Shown here piece by piece: positions 785 through 9,686 of a stretch of 64,000 nucleotides of DNA. Below the pieces are notes generated by a model. It ran no database searches. It saw nothing but the letters and a program-made list of their open reading frames with translations, and had not been told where the DNA came from. Origin of the DNA: Deltaproteobacteria bacterium (GTDB lineage Bacteria > Myxococcota > Myxococcia > Myxococcales > SZAS-1); assembly GCA_018266075.1 (NCBI GenBank), contig JAFEBB010000016.1:1-64000 (forward strand), written 5' to 3'. Numbering within the stretch: the stretch's first letter is position 1; every line of letters begins with the position of its first letter. Made by a program: the position numbers and the translations under genes.

Positions 785-1288
785 ATGTCGGACAGCCACC
801 GCATCAACCAGGTCTCGATTTCGTCGGAAGGCCCGCGCCAGACGCCGAATGAGAGCTTTGGCAACACCCTCTCGAAGACGCTCGCCAAGGGCGCCTCGAC
901 CACGCTCGGCCTCGCCTCGCCGCTCTTGGGCGCGGTGAACCCGGCGCTCTCGGCGCCCGTGAGCCAGGCCGCCCAGACCATCGCGCAGTTCGCGAATTCT
1001 GGTCCGGCGACCACGCCGCGCGCGCTCACCAGCGTGCCCTTGCCCAACGCGAGCGCGCCCTCGGGCAGCTCGGGCGAAGCGTCGATTGGCGCGAGCGCCG
1101 GCGGGACCGACTCGGCGTCGCTGCTTCAGGCGCAGCAGGCCATGAACGAGCAGTCGCAGCAGTTCAACATGATGTACCTGCAGCTCCAGGACAACATGCA
1201 GCGCGAGTCGCGGGAGTACGAGACCATCTCGAACATCATGAAGGTCCGCCACGACACCGCGAAGAACGCCATCAACAACATCCACTAA
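785..1288 (+). CDS. T3SS-associated small protein, candidate needle/secreted component
   Basis: A 167-residue protein, first gene of the sigma-54-controlled operon that continues with sctI and sctJ. Residues 1-110 are Ser/Ala/Gly/Pro-rich with no signal peptide, as is common for T3SS-secreted proteins. The C-terminal 55 residues are polar and helical (QQFNMMYLQLQDNMQRESRE, then a KVRHDTAKNAINNIH end), resembling the amphipathic C-terminal helix of needle, rod and filament proteins. Needle proteins (SctF) normally have only about 80 residues, so this one would carry a long extra N-terminus. The start is supported by GGAGG at 775-779. The role is inferred from position and helix character; no family match was made. 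Confidence 0.6.
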   Translation: MSDSHRINQVSISSEGPRQTPNESFGNTLSKTLAKGASTTLGLASPLLGAVNPALSAPVSQAAQTIAQFANSGPATTPRALTSVPLPNASAPSGSSGEASIGASAGGTDSASLLQAQQAMNEQSQQFNMMYLQLQDNMQRESREYETISNIMKVRHDTAKNAINNIH

Positions 1289-1312
1289 CTCGAAATCCCC
1301 CGGGAGGACGCC

Positions 1313-1729
1313 ATGATCGACAAGGTCGCAGGCGCCGCGGTCCAGGGCGCGAGTGAAGTGGCCAAGGCGCCGAAGGCCCAGTCCTTCGGCAGCGTGATGA
1401 AGCAGCCGAACGTCGCCAAGGCCCAGGCGCCGCAGCAGATCCAGAAGGCGCAGCACGCGCAGCCCAAGCCGAAGCCGGAGCCGGTGGCGAAGACGCAGGC
1501 GGTGCAGTCGAAGCCGCAGGCCGCGGCGCTCATCAACGAGGTCGGCGCGGCGCAGGCGAAGCTGGACCAGATCTTGAAGATGGCTGAGTCCGGTCGGACG
1601 TTCTCGCCTGCGGAGCTCCTGGCCTTCCAGACCCACGCGTACCGCGCGAGCCAGGAGCTGGATCTGGCGGGCAAGGTCGTCGAGAAGGCCACCAGCGGCG
1701 TGAAGCAAACCCTCAACACCCAGGTGTAG
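1313..1729 (+). CDS. sctI: T3SS inner rod protein SctI
   Basis: A 138-residue protein with a disordered Lys/Pro/Gln-rich N-terminal half. The C-terminal 50 residues are diagnostic for the YscI/PrgJ/SctI family: FSPAELLAFQTHAYRASQEL, then AGKVVEKATSGVKQTLNTQV. SctI links the needle to the export gate in the periplasm and is itself exported early. The start has a GGGAGGA ribosome site. It sits 24 bp after the candidate needle gene and 2 bp before sctJ, so they are one operon. At about 140 residues it is slightly long for the family because of the N-terminal extension. Confidence 0.85.
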   Translation: MIDKVAGAAVQGASEVAKAPKAQSFGSVMKQPNVAKAQAPQQIQKAQHAQPKPKPEPVAKTQAVQSKPQAAALINEVGAAQAKLDQILKMAESGRTFSPAELLAFQTHAYRASQELDLAGKVVEKATSGVKQTLNTQV

Positions 1730-1731
1730 CC

Positions 1732-2502
1732 ATGAAAAAGCTCATTCTTGCCGCGGCGATGGTGCTCTCCGCCTGCTCCACCAAGATCCAGCACGGGCTC
1801 GCCGAGCGCGACGCCGACGAGATCCAGGCCGTCCTCGGCGACCACGGCATCACCGCGACGCCGGTGCCCGAAGGCAAGGAGAAGTGGGCGCTCGAGGTGC
1901 CGCAGTCGAGCGCTTCCGAGGCGGTGCGCATCCTCCACGAGAACAACCTGCCCCGGCAGCAGGCGCCGGGCTTCGCGGAGGTCTTCGGCCAGGGCTCGAT
2001 GGTCCCGACCGCGACCGAAGAGCGCGCCAAGCTGATTCAGGCGCTCTCGGGCGAGAACGCGCGCCTGCTCCAGGGGCTCGAGGGCGTGATCGCGGCGAAG
2101 GTGATCGTGGTCCCTGAGTCGAAGGCGAGCGCGTTCGGCCAGGTTGAGCCGGCGCGCGCGTCGGTCCTGCTCAAGGTGGCCGCGCCGCACGCGGATTCAC
2201 TCGAGAAAAAGAAGCCGGAGATCCAGCAGCTCGTCGCTGGCTCGGTGCCCGGGCTCACGCCGGATCACGTGGCGCTGCTCGTGGAGTCGGTCGAGGTGAA
2301 GGCGCGGCCCACAGTCGTCGAGACCAAGGACCGCACGGCTGCGGTGCTCGTGGCTTCGGTCGCGGGCGTGCTCCTCGCGCTGCTCGCGGGTGGCCTGGTG
2401 GCTGCAGTGCTCCGGGCTCGCAAGCTGCGGCTCGAGCTCGACGGCGATGAGGACGAGGACGAAGAGCCGACCGCCAAGCCCGCGCCCAAGAAGGCCGCCT
2501 AG
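1732..2502 (+). CDS. sctJ: T3SS inner-membrane ring lipoprotein SctJ
   Basis: A 256-residue homologue of YscJ/PrgK and of the FliF N-terminus. A lipobox (VLSAC, lipidated Cys15) is followed by the ring-building fold with the family motif NNLPRQQAPGF near residue 71, a linker, and a second ring domain (residues 95-190). A single membrane helix lies at about 203-227 and is followed by a short acidic/basic tail (DEDEDEEP, then KKAA) facing the cytoplasm. SctJ forms the inner ring that surrounds the export gate. It is directly behind sctI, and the next gene encodes a protein that may dock on this cytoplasmic tail. Confidence 0.92.
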   Translation: MKKLILAAAMVLSACSTKIQHGLAERDADEIQAVLGDHGITATPVPEGKEKWALEVPQSSASEAVRILHENNLPRQQAPGFAEVFGQGSMVPTATEERAKLIQALSGENARLLQGLEGVIAAKVIVVPESKASAFGQVEPARASVLLKVAAPHADSLEKKKPEIQQLVAGSVPGLTPDHVALLVESVEVKARPTVVETKDRTAAVLVASVAGVLLALLAGGLVAAVLRARKLRLELDGDEDEDEEPTAKPAPKKAA

Positions 2503-2511
2503 GAGCCCGCC

Positions 2512-2964
2512 ATGGAGCCCATGCGATTCTTCCCGAAGCCGCAGAACCCCAAGGAGACGCGCGTCATCGCCGCAGCTCCGCGGGCCCGGCTGGCGCGGCT
2601 TCCCGAGGCCGACCGGCAGCTGGTGATGCTGCTGGTTTCGCTGGGCGCCGAGCAAGCCCGGACGCTGCTCGCGGGACTCTCGGACGAGCGCCGCGAGCTG
2701 TTGGCGCCGCTGGTGGCCGAGGCGATGTCGCTGCCCGATGCCGAGCGGCACGCGCTCTTCGCCGTGCCCGAGCGCCGGACGGACTCGAGCAAGCTGAATG
2801 CGCGCCTGCGCACCGAGCGGCCCCGGCTTGCGAATCTCCTGGTGCATGAGCTCGCACCTCGGCGCGCCCCGGCGAACCTGGTGCCGGCCAAGGCCTCCAG
2901 CGAGACGTTCGGACGCACCCTGGCCGCCATCGCGCGCAGCTGGAAGGCCGAAGCCACGAAGTGA
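2512..2964 (+). CDS. small T3SS protein with FliG-N-like helices
   Basis: A 150-residue, apparently cytoplasmic protein with no signal peptide or membrane helix, 9 bp after sctJ. Residues 28-85 (LPEADRQLVMLLVSLGAEQA, then LLAGLSDERRELLAPLV) have the spacing of the N-terminal helical domain of FliG, which in flagella binds the C-terminus of FliF. Gene order also parallels fliF-fliG. In other T3SS this slot often holds SctK or SctL, but this protein is shorter than either and has no stator-like coiled coil. The FliG comparison is by eye and should be held loosely. The stop codon overlaps the first base of the enhancer repeat that follows. Confidence 0.6.
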   Translation: MEPMRFFPKPQNPKETRVIAAAPRARLARLPEADRQLVMLLVSLGAEQARTLLAGLSDERRELLAPLVAEAMSLPDAERHALFAVPERRTDSSKLNARLRTERPRLANLLVHELAPRRAPANLVPAKASSETFGRTLAAIARSWKAEATK

Positions 2965-2998
2965 TCGCCGCGCGGACACCCCTGTCCGCCGGACGATC
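2963..2998. promoter_or_regulatory. inverted-repeat enhancer (UAS) copy 2
   Basis: A 36-bp palindrome with arms GATCGCCGCGCGGACA and TGTCCGCCGGACGATC around CCCC. It begins inside the stop codon of the preceding gene. Together with copy 3 it forms a tandem pair, 38 bp centre to centre, the only doubled site of the set. This may make the sctQ operon more responsive to the activator. Confidence 0.65.
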
Positions 2999-3000
2999 GC

Positions 3001-3036
3001 GATCGCGCCGCGGACACCCCTGTCCGCCGCGCGATC
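3001..3036. promoter_or_regulatory. inverted-repeat enhancer (UAS) copy 3
   Basis: The best conserved copy: arms GATCGCGCCGCGGACA and TGTCCGCCGCGCGATC around CCCC, with a single mismatch between the arms. It lies 33 bp before the -24 element of the sctQ operon. It is probably a dimer-binding site for a sigma-54 activator. Confidence 0.7.
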
Positions 3037-3068
3037 ACCTGCTTGCGGGCTACCCCAGGGAACTCGTC

Positions 3069-3084
3069 GGGCACGCGCCTTGAA
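3069..3084 (+). promoter_or_regulatory. sigma-54-like promoter for the sctQ-sctT operon
   Basis: GGGCACGCGCCTTGAA matches TGGCACG-N4-TTGCW except for the first T and the C of the -12 GC. The GG doublet and the TTG are correctly placed. The predicted start near 3095 leaves a leader of about 19 nt with a GGAG ribosome site before the ATG at 3114, the same geometry as at the first operon. Confidence 0.6.
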
Positions 3085-3113
3085 CTACCGGCCGCCATCG
3101 ACCGGAGTTCGCG

Positions 3114-4220
3114 ATGTTGAAGCCCCTCACCCAGGCCAAGAAGCTCGCGAAGTTGGGCTCGCGCTCGCTCACGCGCGCGCACGTGGCGCTGCAGCGTCGA
3201 CCCGCGCTGAAGGCCGCTTTCGCCGAGGCCGTGCAGGCGGTCGCGACCGCGCTCGGCAAGCGCCTCGACGCCGAGGTCACCCTCGAATCGCAGCTCCTCG
3301 ACGCCGCCGTCAAAGGCCCGAATTCGCTCGCTTCTCCCGGCGTGTTCGCGCTCGTGTCGCTCGATGAGGTCGGCGGCTTCGCGGTCGTCGAGCTCGAGCC
3401 GCAGCTCTGTTCCGCGCTGGTCGACAAGCTCGCTGGCGGCAACGGGGAAAGCCTCGCCCCGCTTGCACTTTCCGAAGCCGAGCGCGCCGGGACCTCGCTG
3501 CTCGTGCTCGACGCGCTCGCCGCCCTTCGCAACAGCCCCGTGGAAAAAGCCCTGGGACCGCGCCTGGTTCGCATCGTCACCAGCGCGGCCGAGGTCACGG
3601 CCGTCACCGACCTGCGCGCGGCGCACTTGGCCGTCCGCGTGAAGCTCTCCTGCGGCCCAGCGACGGGCTTCGCCCGCGTGCTCATCCCCGCGAGCGCACT
3701 GAGGTTCTGGGTGGAGTCGGTGCCGGCCGAGGTGGTCGTGCCGGCGCCCGAGGTCGCCGCCGCCAGCGTGCCCGTGAGCGTCATCGCCGGGCGCGCCACG
3801 CTCACCACCGCCGACATCGACACGCTCACCGGCGGCGACGTGGTCCTGCTCGAGGGCCTCTCTGGCACCCGCGAGGCGCTCACCGGACCCGCCCGGCTGG
3901 TGGGCACGACCTTCGCAATCACCGGTCACATCGGCCCCGACGCCTTCACCGTCGCGGCCCTCCACACGGAGCCCGCCATGAACGACGCCACGACGATCCA
4001 GAAGGCCCCCGAGCTGCCGGTCGAGGTCGAGGTCGAGCTGTGCAAGGTGCGCCTGACCGTCGCCGAGCTGGGCGCGCTCCAGGTGGGCGGGGTGATTCCG
4101 CTCCGCGTCGGCGCGGGCGAGCCGGTGGCGCTCAAGCTCGGCGATGCGGTGGTCGCGATCGCGGAGCTCGTGGAGATCGAAGGCGAAATCGGCGCTCGCA
4201 TCCTTCGGCTGGCCAAGTGA
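3114..4220 (+). CDS. sctQ: T3SS sorting-platform (C-ring) protein SctQ
   Basis: A 368-residue protein of the YscQ/FliN-FliM group. The C-terminal 70 residues form a clear SpoA domain (VEVELCKVRLTVAELGALQV, then GEPVALKLGDAVVAIAELVE and a terminal ARILRLAK). The upstream part is a divergent region with a second, weaker beta-rich domain. SctQ forms the cytoplasmic sorting platform that receives substrates. It is the first gene of the second operon, behind tandem enhancer repeats and a sigma-54-like promoter. Its usual partners SctL and SctN are not in this window. Some SctQ genes have an internal start yielding a free SpoA protein; the ATG at 3978 (AACGACGCC follows) is a possible one here. Confidence 0.85.
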   Translation: MLKPLTQAKKLAKLGSRSLTRAHVALQRRPALKAAFAEAVQAVATALGKRLDAEVTLESQLLDAAVKGPNSLASPGVFALVSLDEVGGFAVVELEPQLCSALVDKLAGGNGESLAPLALSEAERAGTSLLVLDALAALRNSPVEKALGPRLVRIVTSAAEVTAVTDLRAAHLAVRVKLSCGPATGFARVLIPASALRFWVESVPAEVVVPAPEVAAASVPVSVIAGRATLTTADIDTLTGGDVVLLEGLSGTREALTGPARLVGTTFAITGHIGPDAFTVAALHTEPAMNDATTIQKAPELPVEVEVELCKVRLTVAELGALQVGGVIPLRVGAGEPVALKLGDAVVAIAELVEIEGEIGARILRLAK

Positions 4221-4228
4221 GGACCGCC

Positions 4229-4615
4229 ATGAACCCCAAGTTCTCCCTCGACCTGAAGAACCCCATGGGCCGCAAGCTCTGGGCAATCGGCGGCTGCATC
4301 GGCGCTCTCGTGTTCGCCCAGCTGAGCTCGCCCAGTTCGGCGAACGCGTCGCTCGGGCTCGCGCCGTTCAAGATGCTCGCGGTGCTGGGCTGCTTCGGGG
4401 CGCTGGCATGGTGGCTGCTTAAGAAGCTCCCGAACGCCGGCGCACAGCAGCTCGAACCGGCGCTCAAGGTCGTGAGCAAGACCGCGCTGAGCCCGAAGAA
4501 CGGATTGGCGCTGGTCGAAGCAGATGGAATCCGCGTGCTCGTCGCGTACGGCGACGGCTTCGCCCGCGTGCTCCCGCTCGATGCGGTGGGCGCGCAGAAG
4601 GAGAACGCGTCATGA
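4229..4615 (+). CDS. FliO-like membrane protein of the T3SS
   Basis: A 128-residue protein with two hydrophobic segments (about residues 20-36 and 48-66, the second ending in WWLLKKLP). A small soluble beta domain follows (LKVVSKTALSPKNGLALVEA, then VLVAYGDGFARVLPL), the usual layout of FliO, the assembly chaperone of the flagellar export gate. It lies between sctQ and sctR, exactly where fliO sits in flagellar operons (fliN-fliO-fliP), and overlaps sctR by ATGA. Most host-directed T3SS lack a FliO homologue. Its presence supports an early-branching system. The assignment uses size, topology and position. Confidence 0.7.
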   Translation: MNPKFSLDLKNPMGRKLWAIGGCIGALVFAQLSSPSSANASLGLAPFKMLAVLGCFGALAWWLLKKLPNAGAQQLEPALKVVSKTALSPKNGLALVEADGIRVLVAYGDGFARVLPLDAVGAQKENAS

Positions 4616-5349
4616 GCTCGCTCCACCACGTCGCCGCCGCTGCCCTCCCCCACGTCGAGCCGGTGATTCACCAGCCCGCGCAGATGGCCGACCTGAACTT
4701 CACCACGCACCCGCTGATGATGATGGGCCTGCTCGGCGCGATGGCGCTGGCGCCCTTCGTGGTGCTGATGCTCACCAGCTTCGCGAAGATGAGCGTGGTC
4801 CTGTCGATCACCCGGAACGCGCTGGGCTCGCCCTCGCTCCCGCCGACGACCGTGCTCACCGGACTCGCCGTGATCCTCAGCGCCTTCGTGATGGCGCCCG
4901 TCGGGCAGGACATGTACGCGGCCGGCAAAGCCGCCTACGCCACGAGCGCCACCGGGGAAATCGACGACGCGCTCCACGCGGCCGCCGTCGCCGCGGGCCC
5001 GCTGCGCGCGTTCCTGCTCAAGCACGGGCACGCCGAGGATCGCTCGATGTTCCTGGAGCTTGCCCAGCAGCTCCGCGGCGAGAAGGGCGCCAACGACGTC
5101 ACTGCCGAGGACGTGGTGGTCATCGTGCCGGCCTTCGTGATCAGCGAGCTCAAGGAGGCGTTCCAGATCGGGTTCTTGATCTTCCTGCCCTTCCTCGTGG
5201 TCGACATGCTCGTGGCCAACGTGCTGATGGCGCTGGGGATGAGCTCGCTCTCGCCGACGCAGGTGTCGCTGCCCTTCAAGCTGCTGCTCTTCGTGATGGT
5301 CGACGGCTGGCACCTCCTCGCCCAGGGCCTCGTGCTCGGCTACCGCTGA
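4612..5349 (+). CDS. sctR: T3SS export gate protein SctR
   Basis: A 245-residue FliP/SctR family protein, the five-copy core of the export gate. The N-terminal 30 residues are hydrophilic, the first membrane helix starts near residue 35, and a soluble loop separates two helix pairs. The family signature is plain: ELKEAFQIGFLIFLPFLVVD near residue 180, and LPFKLLLFVMVDGWHLL near the C-terminus. It overlaps the FliO-like gene by ATGA and is followed by sctS after 30 bp. Confidence 0.95.
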   Translation: MSSLHHVAAAALPHVEPVIHQPAQMADLNFTTHPLMMMGLLGAMALAPFVVLMLTSFAKMSVVLSITRNALGSPSLPPTTVLTGLAVILSAFVMAPVGQDMYAAGKAAYATSATGEIDDALHAAAVAAGPLRAFLLKHGHAEDRSMFLELAQQLRGEKGANDVTAEDVVVIVPAFVISELKEAFQIGFLIFLPFLVVDMLVANVLMALGMSSLSPTQVSLPFKLLLFVMVDGWHLLAQGLVLGYR

Positions 5350-5379
5350 TTGGCCCGACGGCTGCAAAGGAGCCTGGTC

Positions 5380-5646
5380 ATGAACCCCGACACCTTCCTC
5401 GCCCTCGGTCGCGAAGCCCTGACGATGCTCGTCATCGCCTCCGCCCCGCCGCTGCTGGCCTCGCTCGTGGTGGGCGTGCTCGCGTCGCTGTTCCAGGCGA
5501 CCACGCAGATTCAGGAGAGCACGCTCTCGTCGGTGCCCAAGCTGCTCGCGGCGATCGGCGCCCTGGTGCTCGCGGGTCCGTGGATCGGCCAGCACCTGGC
5601 GCGCTTCACCCAGGACCTCTTCGCTGTTCTCCCGCAGCTCCACTGA
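5380..5646 (+). CDS. sctS: T3SS export gate protein SctS
   Basis: An 88-residue FliQ/SctS protein with two membrane helices and the family motif LFQATTQIQESTLSSVPKLL. The start is set at the ATG at 5380 because it has a good ribosome site (AAAGGAG at 5365-5371) and gives the normal family length. An earlier in-frame TTG at 5350 would add ten non-conserved residues. SctS wraps the SctR-SctT core. It is followed by sctT after 7 bp. Confidence 0.93.
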   Translation: MNPDTFLALGREALTMLVIASAPPLLASLVVGVLASLFQATTQIQESTLSSVPKLLAAIGALVLAGPWIGQHLARFTQDLFAVLPQLH

Positions 5647-5653
5647 GCCCGCC

Positions 5654-6448
5654 ATGAACTTGCCCTCCGCGCTCACGGTTCTCGCGAACCAGCTCCAGCC
5701 GCACCTCTGGCCGGTGGCGCTCTGCGGCGCGCGGCTGCTTCCGGTGTGCTTGATGTGCCCGGTCTTCGGCGGCGGACAAGCGCCGTCGCAGGTGCGCCTG
5801 AGCCTTGCGCTGATGCTCGCGCTCTTCGTGCACGTGGGGTGCGGGATCGCGCTGCCTGCGACCTTCGTCGCGAATCCGGAGACGCTGATTCCCGCCTTCG
5901 CGACGCAGCTCTTCGCGGGCTTGTGCATGGGCTACGTGGCCGCCTTGCCCTTTGACGCCGCGCGCATCGGCGGCCGGCTCCTCGACACGCTCCGCGGTGC
6001 CAACGCCGAAGCCTCGCTTCCCGAAGTCGGACAGAAGGACGCCGCCACGGCAGGCATGCTCCACCAGCTCCTCTGCGCGACGCTCTTCGCCTGCGGCGGC
6101 TATCGGCTGGTGATGGGCGCGGTGGTGAAGAGCTTCGGCGCCCTTCCGCTCGTGGGCGGCGCCATGAACATGACCGCGGCCGTCGAGCTGTGCGCCGCGG
6201 GTGCGCTCGCGGCGATGGCCACTGGGCTCGCGATTGGTGCTCCGGCCGCTGCGGTGTCACTGGTCGTCGACGTGGGACTTGGGCTCGCGGCTCGCGCCGC
6301 ACCTCAGCTCAAGCTCGCCGACACGGGCGCGCCGGTGAAGCTTGGCCTCGGCGCTGCGGCGATTCTGTTGTCGCTCGGAGCCGTCAGCGAGCGGCTGCTG
6401 GGCGTCGCGGCGGAGAGCGTCCAGACGCTCGGGCTGCTGGTGAGGTGA
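5654..6448 (+). CDS. sctT: T3SS export gate protein SctT
   Basis: A 264-residue FliR/SctT protein with about seven hydrophobic segments and typical length for the family. The plug-region motif is RIGGRLLDTLRGANAEASLP near residue 105, and the helix APAAAVSLVVDVGLGLAARA with PQLK follows at about residues 197-220, as in FliR. It caps the SctR-S-T cone. The stop codon overlaps the enhancer repeat that precedes sctU, so this is the last gene of the second operon. Confidence 0.92.
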   Translation: MNLPSALTVLANQLQPHLWPVALCGARLLPVCLMCPVFGGGQAPSQVRLSLALMLALFVHVGCGIALPATFVANPETLIPAFATQLFAGLCMGYVAALPFDAARIGGRLLDTLRGANAEASLPEVGQKDAATAGMLHQLLCATLFACGGYRLVMGAVVKSFGALPLVGGAMNMTAAVELCAAGALAAMATGLAIGAPAAAVSLVVDVGLGLAARAAPQLKLADTGAPVKLGLGAAAILLSLGAVSERLLGVAAESVQTLGLLVR

Positions 6449-6483
6449 TCGCGCGGCGGTCACCCCCTGTCCGTGGCGCGATC
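6447..6483. promoter_or_regulatory. inverted-repeat enhancer (UAS) copy 4
   Basis: A 37-bp palindrome with arms GATCGCGCGGCGGTCA and TGTCCGTGGCGCGATC, here with a C5 spacer instead of C4. It starts at the stop codon of sctT and lies 51 bp ahead of the sigma-54-like element before sctU. It is the fourth copy of the family in this locus. Confidence 0.65.
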
Positions 6484-6533
6484 ACTTGCCCGGAGGGGTC
6501 ATCCAACCACCTGGAATCGCTCGAACTCTGAGT

Positions 6534-6549
6534 CGGCACGGGCATCGCA
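6534..6549 (+). promoter_or_regulatory. sigma-54-like promoter for the sctU-sctV operon
   Basis: CGGCACGGGCATCGCA matches TGGCACG-N4-TTGCW except for the first T and the second T of the -12 box. Unlike the other two promoters it sits very close to the gene. The predicted transcription start falls at about 6560-6562, essentially at the ATG of sctU, so the transcript would be leaderless or nearly so. Confidence 0.5.
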
Positions 6550-6561
6550 ATTGCGCGGTGC

Positions 6562-7614
6562 ATGTCCTCCGAGAAGACCGAGCAGCCCACCGAGAAGCGC
6601 AAGCGCGAAGCCCGGGAAAAGGGCCAAGTCGCGCGCTCGAAGGCGCTCTCCGCCACCGCTTCCGGCAGCGCGGCCATGCTCGCGGCCTTCGGCACGCTCT
6701 CGGGCTCGGCGGGCGAGGCCGTCCACTACACGCGCGCGGCGCTCGAGCAGGCCACTGCGCTCGGCCAGAGCCCCGACCAGGCCGTCCACGCGGCCGTCTC
6801 GATGCTCCTCGCGCTGGCAATTCCCACGCTGGCGACTGCAGTTGCGGCCGCTGCGCTGGTCACCGCGGCGCAGGTCGGGCTGCAGCTCAACCTTGGCCAC
6901 GTCGCGCCCAAGCTCGAGCGGCTCGATCCCAGCGCCGCCTGGAAGAAGATGTTCGGCGTCCAGAGCGTGATCGAGGTGCTGCGCTCGCTGGTTGCCGTGG
7001 CGGTCGTCGGCGGGATTGGCTGGGCGACGCTGCGCAACAACGCGGCGATGCTCGCGAATCTCGCTTCGACACCCGGCGACGCTGCCATGTGTGCCGGCCT
7101 CGGGCTCGCGCTGCAGATCGCCAAGAAGGCCGCGTTCGCCCTGCTCGCGCTGGGCGCCATCGACTACGGCATCCAGCGCTGGCAGCACCTGAAGTCGCTG
7201 ATGATGACCCGCGAAGAGGTCAAGCAGGAGCACAAGAATTCCGAAGGAGATCCGCACATCAAGGGCAAGCGGAAGCGCCTCGCCAAGGAGCTCCTCAACG
7301 CCGCTGGCAAGGGCGTGAAGGGCGCCACGGCGGTGGTCGTGAACCCGACCCACGTCGCGGTGGCGCTGCTCTACGACACCAAGATCGCCGAGGCGCCGGT
7401 CATCGTGGCCCGTGGCACCGAGGCCGAAGCGCTGCAAATCCGCCTGGAAGCGCGACGCTACGGCGTGCCGATCGTCAAGGACGTCCCGCTCGCGCGGACC
7501 CTGGTGAACTTCCAGGTCGGCGAAGAGGTGCCCGAGGAGCTCTACCAGGCGGTGGCAGGGATCTTGAAAGTGGTCTTCGAACAGCAGCTCACGACGACGG
7601 AGCACACGCCATGA
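6562..7614 (+). CDS. sctU: T3SS export switch protein SctU
   Basis: A 350-residue FlhB/SctU protein. The start MSSEKTEQPTEKRKREAREK is the family N-terminus, so the ATG at 6562 is right although no ribosome site precedes it. Four membrane helices follow (residues about 33-205), then the cytoplasmic switch domain with the self-cleaving NPTH motif at residues 261-264. Cleavage between N and P changes substrate class from rod/needle to later substrates. It overlaps sctV by ATGA. It has its own enhancer repeat and sigma-54-like promoter, separate from sctT. Confidence 0.95.
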   Translation: MSSEKTEQPTEKRKREAREKGQVARSKALSATASGSAAMLAAFGTLSGSAGEAVHYTRAALEQATALGQSPDQAVHAAVSMLLALAIPTLATAVAAAALVTAAQVGLQLNLGHVAPKLERLDPSAAWKKMFGVQSVIEVLRSLVAVAVVGGIGWATLRNNAAMLANLASTPGDAAMCAGLGLALQIAKKAAFALLALGAIDYGIQRWQHLKSLMMTREEVKQEHKNSEGDPHIKGKRKRLAKELLNAAGKGVKGATAVVVNPTHVAVALLYDTKIAEAPVIVARGTEAEALQIRLEARRYGVPIVKDVPLARTLVNFQVGEEVPEELYQAVAGILKVVFEQQLTTTEHTP

Positions 7615-9686
7615 AGCTCGACCTGAAGAAGCACGCGGACATCGTCCTGGCCATCGCGGTGGCGGGAATCGTGGGGGCGATGATCGTCCCGCTGCCCACC
7701 TGGCTCCTCGACGGCTTCCTCGCGCTCAACCTCGCCGCCGCTGCCACGCTGCTCGTCGCGGCGCTCTACGCGAAGGACGCGCTCAAGGTGGCGAGCTTCC
7801 CCACGCTGCTGCTCATCACCACGCTCTTCCGGCTCGCGCTCAACGTGAGCTCCACCCGGCTCGCGCTGCTCAACGGCGACGCTGGCGAGGTGATTCGCGC
7901 GTTCGGCGAGTTCGCGGTGCAGGGCGAGTACGTGGTGGGCTTCGTCATCTTTGCCATCCTCACGCTGGTGCAGTTCCTCGTGGTGGCCAAGGGCGCGGAG
8001 CGCGTGAGCGAGGTGGCCGCGCGCTTCACCCTCGACGCCATGCCGGGCAAGCAGATGTCCATCGACGCCGACCTGCGCGCAGGCGCCATCAACCAGGCCG
8101 AGGCGCGCCGCCGCCGCCGCGCGCTCGAGCGCGAGAGCCAGCTCTTCGGCGCCATGGACGGCGCCATGAAGTTCGTGAAGGGCGACGCCATCGCGGGCAT
8201 CGTCATCGTGGCGATCAACTTGATCGGCGGCCTCTGCATCGGCGTGCTCGTGCACGGCATGAGCGTGGGCGACGCGGCCAAGACCTACTTCCTCCTCGCC
8301 ATCGGCGACGGCCTCGTGTCGCAGATTCCGGCGCTCTGCGTGGCCGTCTCGGCCGGCCTGGTGGTGACGCGCGTCGCGAGCGAGGACGAGAACGCTTCGC
8401 TCGGCCTCGACATCGGCTCGCAGTTCTTCAGCCAGCCGCGCGCGCTGTACGTGGTGGCCGGGCTGCTCTCGCTCCTCGGGCTCCTCCCGGGCATGCCGAT
8501 CGTGCCCTTCTTCGGGCTCGCGTTCGGCGCGGCGTTCCTCGGCTTCCGGCTCGACCGCAAGCACAAGGCTGCTGCCGCGGCGCTCGCCCAGGCCCAGGCC
8601 GAGGCCGGCATCCACGCCGCGCACGGTGCGACGCCCGCCGCTGCCGCGACGCCCAGCGCTCCCGCGCAGGTGACCGTGGGCACCGTGCCGCTGCTCGTGG
8701 ACCTCTCGGTGTCGCTCACGGCCATCGCGAAGGAGGACGACGGCCGGCTCGCGGTCAAGGACCTCCCGCAGCTCCGCGACGCGCTCTTCCTCGACACCGG
8801 CCTGCGCTTCCCGCCGGTGCGCGTGCGCCAGAATGCCGGCAACCTGCCCGCGAACGCGTACGTCATCGCCATCGACGAGGTGCCCTGCGCCCGCGGCTCG
8901 CTCGACCCGACCAGGCTCTACACCGGTGCGAGCCCGTCGGACCTGAACATGCTCGGCATCGCCTTCACCCAGGCCAAGGATCCGGCGAGCGGCCGCGCCA
9001 TCTGCGCCGTCGACCCCAGTGAGAAGGAGCGGCTCCAGGCCATGGGCGCGGTGGTGCGCACCGCCCGCGAGCTCTTCCTGGTGCACCTCGCGGCCGTGCT
9101 CCGCCGCAACGCCAGCCAGTTCCTCGGGGTGCAGGAGACGCAGGCGCTCCTCGACGGCCTCGAGCAGAGCTCGCCCGCGCTGGTCCGCTCGGTGGGCGAG
9201 AAGGTGCCGGCCACGCTGCTCACCGAGGTGCTCAAGACGCTCGTCGACGAGGGCGTGAGCATCCGCAACCTGCGCTCGGTGCTGGAGGCGCTGGTGGAGC
9301 CGGGCGTCGAGGGCGACGCGGCCGCGCTGGCCGAGCGCGCGCGCACCTCGCTCAAGCGGCACCTCTCGCACAAGTTCGCGCCGGAGGGCACCCTGCTCAC
9401 GCTGCTGGTGGATCCGATGGTCGAGGAGACGCTCCGCTCGGCCACGCGCGAGGGCCGCGGGCTGGCGCTGGAGCCTGCGCAGGCGATGGGCATCCTCGAC
9501 GGGCTCAAGGCCGCGCTCCGGGGCAACCCGCACGGCGTGATCCTCGCCTCGCCCGACATCCGCCGCTCGCTGCGCCGGCTCATCGCCGCGCACTTCCCCG
9601 AGGTGGCGGTGCTCACCTTCGGCGAGCTGAACTCGGATCTCGCGGTGAAGCCGGTGGGCAAGCTGGCGTTCGCGAAGGCGGCGTAG
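7611..9686 (+). CDS. sctV: T3SS export apparatus protein SctV
   Basis: A 691-residue FlhA/SctV protein, normal length for the family. The membrane half (about residues 1-310) carries the FHIPEP signature (AARFTLDAMPGKQMSIDADL near residue 139) in the loop that helps couple proton flow to export. A short Ala/Gln/Pro linker precedes the cytoplasmic domain that forms the nine-part substrate-docking ring (about residues 360-691). It is the last gene of the locus and is followed by a terminator and a convergent HU-like gene. No secretin, ATPase or chaperone gene follows. Confidence 0.95.
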   Translation: MKLDLKKHADIVLAIAVAGIVGAMIVPLPTWLLDGFLALNLAAAATLLVAALYAKDALKVASFPTLLLITTLFRLALNVSSTRLALLNGDAGEVIRAFGEFAVQGEYVVGFVIFAILTLVQFLVVAKGAERVSEVAARFTLDAMPGKQMSIDADLRAGAINQAEARRRRRALERESQLFGAMDGAMKFVKGDAIAGIVIVAINLIGGLCIGVLVHGMSVGDAAKTYFLLAIGDGLVSQIPALCVAVSAGLVVTRVASEDENASLGLDIGSQFFSQPRALYVVAGLLSLLGLLPGMPIVPFFGLAFGAAFLGFRLDRKHKAAAAALAQAQAEAGIHAAHGATPAAAATPSAPAQVTVGTVPLLVDLSVSLTAIAKEDDGRLAVKDLPQLRDALFLDTGLRFPPVRVRQNAGNLPANAYVIAIDEVPCARGSLDPTRLYTGASPSDLNMLGIAFTQAKDPASGRAICAVDPSEKERLQAMGAVVRTARELFLVHLAAVLRRNASQFLGVQETQALLDGLEQSSPALVRSVGEKVPATLLTEVLKTLVDEGVSIRNLRSVLEALVEPGVEGDAAALAERARTSLKRHLSHKFAPEGTLLTLLVDPMVEETLRSATREGRGLALEPAQAMGILDGLKAALRGNPHGVILASPDIRRSLRRLIAAHFPEVAVLTFGELNSDLAVKPVGKLAFAKAA

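Follow-up and report, generated by a model that had tools for sequence, protein, structure and literature searches.

Our data point to a FliG-derived adaptor without a motor in the non-flagellar T3SSs (NF-T3SSs) of myxobacteria. In the window, a 64-kb stretch of DNA that forms the beginning of contig C16 in a 7.84-Mb genome, ORF 2512-2964 on the forward strand encodes a 150-residue protein that has probably retained FliG's N domain and, in reduced form, its M domain, lost the torque-associated C domain, and come to join SctJ to SctQ. This protein belongs to a family that we call gene X, which is found by its members' position after sctJ, resembles the N domain and probably the M domain of FliG, and lacks a C domain; the neighboring SctQ proteins carry a FliM-type segment, and the neighboring SctJ proteins a conserved cytoplasmic tail.

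ORF 2512-2964 is part of an 8.9-kb gene run (785 to 9686, all on the forward strand) that makes up a compact myxobacterial non-flagellar T3SS of the arrangement that we term type A. Flanked by sctJ and sctQ, it is a genuine gene: its start lies 10 nt past the sctJ stop, an AGGAG ahead of the start overlaps that stop, and GC content by codon position (0.75/0.53/0.89) is of the coding type. Upstream lie genes for a SctF-like (needle-like) protein (785-1288; PF09392 E 0.017, below cut-off), a SctI-like inner rod protein (1313-1729; PF17001 E 0.013 and NF038054 E 0.053, both below cut-off), and SctJ, the FliF-like inner-membrane ring lipoprotein (1732-2502; TIGR02544 143 bits, E 8.5e-42; PF01514 E 5.7e-21). 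Downstream are SctQ with a FliM domain (3114-4220; PF02154 FliM 34.6 bits against a cut-off of 27, PF01052 68.7 bits), a FliO-like protein (4229-4615; PF04347 25.5 bits, cut-off 22), and the export gate genes (4612-9686), comprising sctR (4612-5349), sctS (5380-5646), sctT (5654-6448), and sctU (6562-7614), all called by Pfam, and sctV (~7611-9686), called by a FHIPEP match at 7668-9638. SctJ, SctQ, and SctRSTUV are thus matched by profiles, and the SctI match is weak; passages of an earlier survey define a "Myxo" group of NF-T3SSs by SctJ, SctI, SctQ, and SctRSTUV together in one locus without a secretin (PMC3459982). The FliO-like protein sits in a non-flagellar operon, and FliO in Myxococcota NF-T3SSs is already described in the accessible part of PMC12248157. 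We also observed that the palindrome GGACACCCCTGTCC occurs three times around the operon (675-688, 2974-2987, and 3012-3025; 0 expected in shuffles), and it is possibly an operator or a repeat element.

Of the order's 145 genomes, 122 have SctJ, frequently in two copies, and ORF maps of 18 fetched stretches revealed two main arrangements of its genes. Type A has the order F-I-J-X-Q-(O)-R-S-T-U-V, with a gene X of similar size directly after sctJ. Type B, which the window's genome also holds (on contig C96), has the order sctJ-fliG-sctL-sctN. The sequence-only reading of the window had remarked that sctJ followed by this gene echoes fliF-fliG; the sister type B fits that remark, its J-G-L-N running parallel to the flagellar F-G-H-I. 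As a lone query, the gene X protein of the window had no match but itself across 60 relatives and none among viral contigs, so we gathered its relatives through SctJ. A SctJ alignment scan of genome contigs gave 80 named loci, many of them myxobacterial (M. xanthus, Corallococcus, and Archangium included), and 43 of these carry gene X (E<1e-4). The 37 loci without it include 21 that we treated as classical injectisomes, a set that includes Variovorax, Pseudomonas, Chelatococcus, and Halomonas, together with truncated contigs and other SctJ-like loci. Gene X members are 18-32% identical to the window member, and their C-terminal helix is conserved.

Several further features of these loci deserve mention. 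Neither sctN nor sctL was found near type-A loci within the fetched stretches (up to 20 kb); the SctN gene seen in the window's genome sits on contig C96, in type B. A second SctV gene of this genome (G000:C37:11560-13587) lies apart from both the window and C96, and type B may be split across contigs or loci. The SctF-like gene is conserved in type-A and type-B loci, though such systems are called needleless in the literature; within its family, 3 of 19 members match PF09392 (best E 0.0026) and 6 of 19 match HrpF. Three loci of family f5 (L042, L045, and L052) have shorter genes (88-145 aa) at the gene X position, which by eye look like reduced members. Five others (L135, L142, L143, L144, and L157) are of a different kind, with a SctJ-like gene followed immediately by an ABC-transporter ATPase-like ORF. 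Finally, a record labeled Comamonas sp. KCTC 72670 (L100) contains a myxobacterial type-A locus whose gene X shares 70% identity with the M. xanthus member; this genome is probably mislabeled or mixed.

The likeness of gene X to FliG emerges at the level of the family. On its own, the 150-residue window protein has no FliG or SctK match in Pfam or NCBIfam, and its sole Pfam match is tRNA_bind (E 0.28). A blind Pfam scan (24,736 models) of 41 gene X members detected FliG_N in 10 (best E 0.0014) and FliG_M in six (best E 0.0074), all weakly, and MgtE_N, a domain with a FliG-like fold, in four. A gene X HMM built from 28 members was run on 7093 ORFs; outside the family, 15 rows reached E<=1, and each of them was a flagellar FliG or a type-B FliG-like protein. 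An HMM rebuilt from 41 members had 59 matches at E<=10 among 6406 distinct ORFs, and the four of these listed with E>1e-9 were all flagellar FliG (best 9.8e-5); reversed decoy ORFs gave 0 matches, and the type-B proteins, though present with the 28-member HMM, were absent. Profile-profile comparison with hhalign scored gene X against FliG at 28.4, a value that none of 100 column shuffles reached (maximum 20.3), with P 0.0015 over just 45 columns for 41 sequences and a weaker P of 0.018 for 28. Against the type-B protein, with whose first ~120 residues gene X aligns, the score was 36.4 (0/100 shuffles as high, maximum 21.7), and here the result weakened as members were added, from 6.9e-6 with 28 to 6.9e-5 with 41. 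In NCBIfam, 39 gene X members showed no FliG match, the commonest match being MTB_hemophore (10 members), and the best FliG match in a PDB profile search was at E 0.1. The likeness to FliG is beyond chance for the family, and no individual test on the window protein is significant.

We next consider the predicted structure. With the 41-sequence alignment, the window protein was modeled at pLDDT 82.2 and pTM 0.56, with helices at residues 13-28, 32-44, 46-54, 58-72, 76-82, 92-101, 104-113, and 130-149. A Foldseek search of this model against 350,542 PDB chains placed FliF:FliG_N complexes at ranks 1-3 (5wuj_B, 5tdy_B, and 5tdy_D; E 0.36-2.3), and VIA likewise ranked 5wuj_B first, over residues 14-87 (66 residues, rmsd 3.9) with a Z of 5.7, where Z values of 5-6 are modest and, by the tool's own warning, may reflect just a common helical arrangement. 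The M. xanthus member was modeled at pLDDT 77.6; of its 28 Foldseek rows, all at E>=1, 13 were FliG-containing entries and two were MgtE chains, and in VIA, the first 13 rows were all FliG-containing entries. Residues 101-163 of that model lie on FliG 113-186 (3soh_B; Z 5.9, rmsd 2.5), and residues 42-99 on FliG_N (5wuj_B; Z 4.9). The weight of these predicted folds lies in the repeated choice of FliG rather than in the modest Z values. SctK chains are missing from the fold matches of both models, which excludes nothing.

These comparisons suggest a domain layout for the window protein. Its FliG_N-like part spans residues ~28-85 (2593-2766), based on the VIA match to 5wuj_B and the alignment of the family profile to the start of FliG. 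The sequence-only reading had proposed this identity from helical segments spaced as in the FliF-binding domain of FliG, and although the lone protein matches no FliG model, the proposal is supported by the modeled helices, the Pfam scan of 41 members, the HMM with its decoys, hhalign with its shuffles, and the first three fold ranks. A FliG_M-like part, which goes beyond that reading, would follow at residues ~88-125 (2773-2886); for this protein the assignment is drawn from alignments, FliG_M being matched at the family level only. Within it, TERPRLANLLVHEL would occupy the place of the EHPQ helix of FliG. The protein stops after the M-like part and leaves no space for a torque domain; because this C domain is missing, we call gene X FliG-like, not FliG.

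The type-B loci extend this picture with a longer paralogous protein, also beyond the sequence-only reading. The copy in the window's genome is encoded at G000:C96:11198-12574, after sctJ and before sctL and sctN, in a second myxobacterial NF-T3SS. Sequence comparison identifies the type-B protein as an undoubted homologue of FliG. FliG_C (PF01706) is found in 15 of 16 members (best E 4.3e-10) and scores 37.6 bits in the window genome's copy against a curated cut-off of 23.3; the NCBIfam FliG model matches seven of the 16. Aligned with 38 flagellar FliG proteins by hhalign, type B gives E 1.6e-10 over 150 columns, from M through C, and in a PDB profile search FliG chains take ranks 1-5 (best 0.0027). 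Across the order, 61 of 145 genomes match PF01706, and several of the weak matches lie directly behind SctJ. The type-B protein is the only FliG_C match in the window's genome, and therefore no flagellar FliG was found there. A tree with the 38 flagellar FliG proteins gathers type B into a single group (100/100) that falls outside every flagellar sequence; because the branch of this group measures 5.7 changes per column, the tree cannot separate an ancient split from fast evolution. Like gene X, the type-B protein follows sctJ; unlike gene X, it is 458-742 aa long, has FliG_C-type sequence, mostly carries a long low-complexity tail, and is followed by sctL and sctN.

Both presumed partners of gene X show features that fit a FliG-type adaptor. 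The window's SctJ has a cytoplasmic tail past its membrane helix, as the sequence-only reading had noted; we count 33 residues (2401-2499, ending KKAA), near the figure given there, and consider the tail a candidate docking site. In type-A SctJ proteins the tail has a median of 36 residues and a conserved tip, and a C-terminal pattern [RK][KR][VALI][AT], picked after the tails had been inspected, occurs in 38 of 43 type-A loci, in none of 25 type-B rows (one gene appearing twice), and in none of 21 classical loci. In SctQ, we found a FliM-type segment around a GGxG loop, a feature outside the sequence-only reading, in 40 of 42 type-A proteins (the other two being short ORFs), 4 of 4 type-B proteins, and 0 of 19 classical ones. 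The strict GGxG is kept in 4 of 42 type-A proteins, including the window's (GGNG, 3435-3446), and in all four of type B. Pfam FliM matches all six myxobacterial SctQ proteins tested (three over the cut-off) and none of four classical ones. In flagella, the FliM GGxG motif touches FliG_M. Passages of PMC4768692 describe FliG_N as bound by the C-terminal cytosolic region of FliF, and the M and C domains of FliG as binding FliM.

From these parallels we infer the contacts of gene X with SctJ and SctQ, the ring that they would build, and its function. As in the flagellum, the FliG_N-like domain would dock onto the tail that SctJ, the FliF-like ring protein, extends into the cytoplasm, and the FliG_M-like part would attach to SctQ at its FliM-type segment. 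The resulting chain from SctJ tail through FliG_N-like domain and FliG_M-like part to SctQ would amount to a switch-ring connection without a motor, suspending a cytoplasmic ring or sorting platform from the inner-membrane ring. In such an assembly, gene X would take the slot that SctK holds in classical injectisomes.

This shared slot raises the question of whether gene X is itself a divergent SctK, an ordinary sorting-platform adaptor in its usual place. Classical loci carry a gene of ~200-250 aa directly after sctJ, with YscK matches in three of 11 genomes that have such a gene; SctK (YscK/MxiK/OrgA) also has the same presumed role of linking the ring to the SctQ pods, and a review, in the portion available, guesses at a FliG-like role for it, entering SctK as "FliG (?)" (PMC4045390). 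We consider this reading quite unlikely and rejected it, since sequence similarity between the two is undetectable: YscK has no match in the 41 gene X members at E<=1, and hhalign of gene X against 20 SctK proteins scores 14.8, not above shuffles (2/100 as high). The two halves of this SctK protein set are themselves poorly linked to each other (Kv-Kc P 0.016), which makes the hhalign test weak for very distant kinship. A phmmer search of the PDB with P. luteola SctK returned only 2mpe_A (BPSL1050, E 0.006) and an epimerase. A SctL/FliH identity was likewise rejected, as a SctL query matched SctL/FliH genes in many loci and never gene X. The sequence-only reading had named a clear SctK or SctL match beforehand as the result that would speak against it, and the profile searches found neither.

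Two other explanations concern descent and function. Gene X might have arisen independently of FliG, as a helical adaptor of ARM-like or MgtE_N-like type whose fold converged on that of FliG_N and which was recruited to its place next to sctJ; the MgtE_N and MgtE matches noted above would allow this, as would VIA Z values of a size that common helical arrangements can give. Every search with gene X, however, returned more FliG than MgtE matches, the sister type B has a FliG homologue after sctJ to whose start gene X aligns better than 100 of 100 shuffles, and SctQ retains its FliM-type segment; we regard convergence as unlikely. The older view that myxobacterial loci are degenerate secretion loci, reported in passages of PMC3459982, would instead cast gene X as a functionless, decaying remnant of type-B FliG. 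Its fast evolution and the lack of SctN and SctL within the fetched type-A stretches are in keeping with decay, yet gene X is intact in all 43 loci that carry it, in a constant place and with a conserved C-terminal helix, and the window copy has intact codon-position GC, making this explanation very improbable. We favor descent from FliG with retention of an adaptor role.

FliG itself is ~340 aa long and includes the C (torque) domain that the ~150-residue gene X lacks; the two share N-domain likeness, a probable M-domain likeness, and a place directly after the FliF-like ring gene, and the presumed partner SctQ retains its FliM-type segment. A related case is a fusion of FliF with FliG(M) in Chlamydia, described in part of PMC4768692, where a piece of FliG likewise persists in an injectisome bearer not thought to be flagellated; there it is fused to a flagellar-type FliF, whereas gene X stands as a gene of its own within a T3SS operon. 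The 2012 survey, in the passages available, places Myxo systems as the deepest NF-T3SS branch and states that they are without FliG and that flagellar proteins, if present, should have been detected (PMC3459982). The accessible text of PMC5043178 gives MxiK no clear flagellar homologue. Our literature search, with most subscription papers outside its reach, found no report of a FliG homologue in these loci. By gene content alone, the type-B FliG seems to be part of the same kind of locus as M. xanthus MXAN_2434-2464, which acts in prey lysis according to passages of PMC10433427; this paper and PMC12075869 treat the M. xanthus T3SS* in predation, and the word FliG does not occur in the available portion of the latter.

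FliG is regarded as a rotor protein of flagella only, believed lost from injection machines. We tentatively suggest that myxobacterial NF-T3SSs could keep a motor-less FliG-FliM ring as an ancestral sorting platform, with the type-A adaptor marking a stage in the loss of the torque domain and SctK, in the same slot, being its replacement or its unrecognizably diverged successor. Gene X may be a living remnant of the evolution of injection needles from flagella. If pieces of FliG do persist in these systems, the passage from a rotor ring to a sorting platform could be studied in living bacteria amenable to genetics, and the older suggestion of SctK as a stand-in for FliG (PMC4045390, as far as its available text goes) would become testable.
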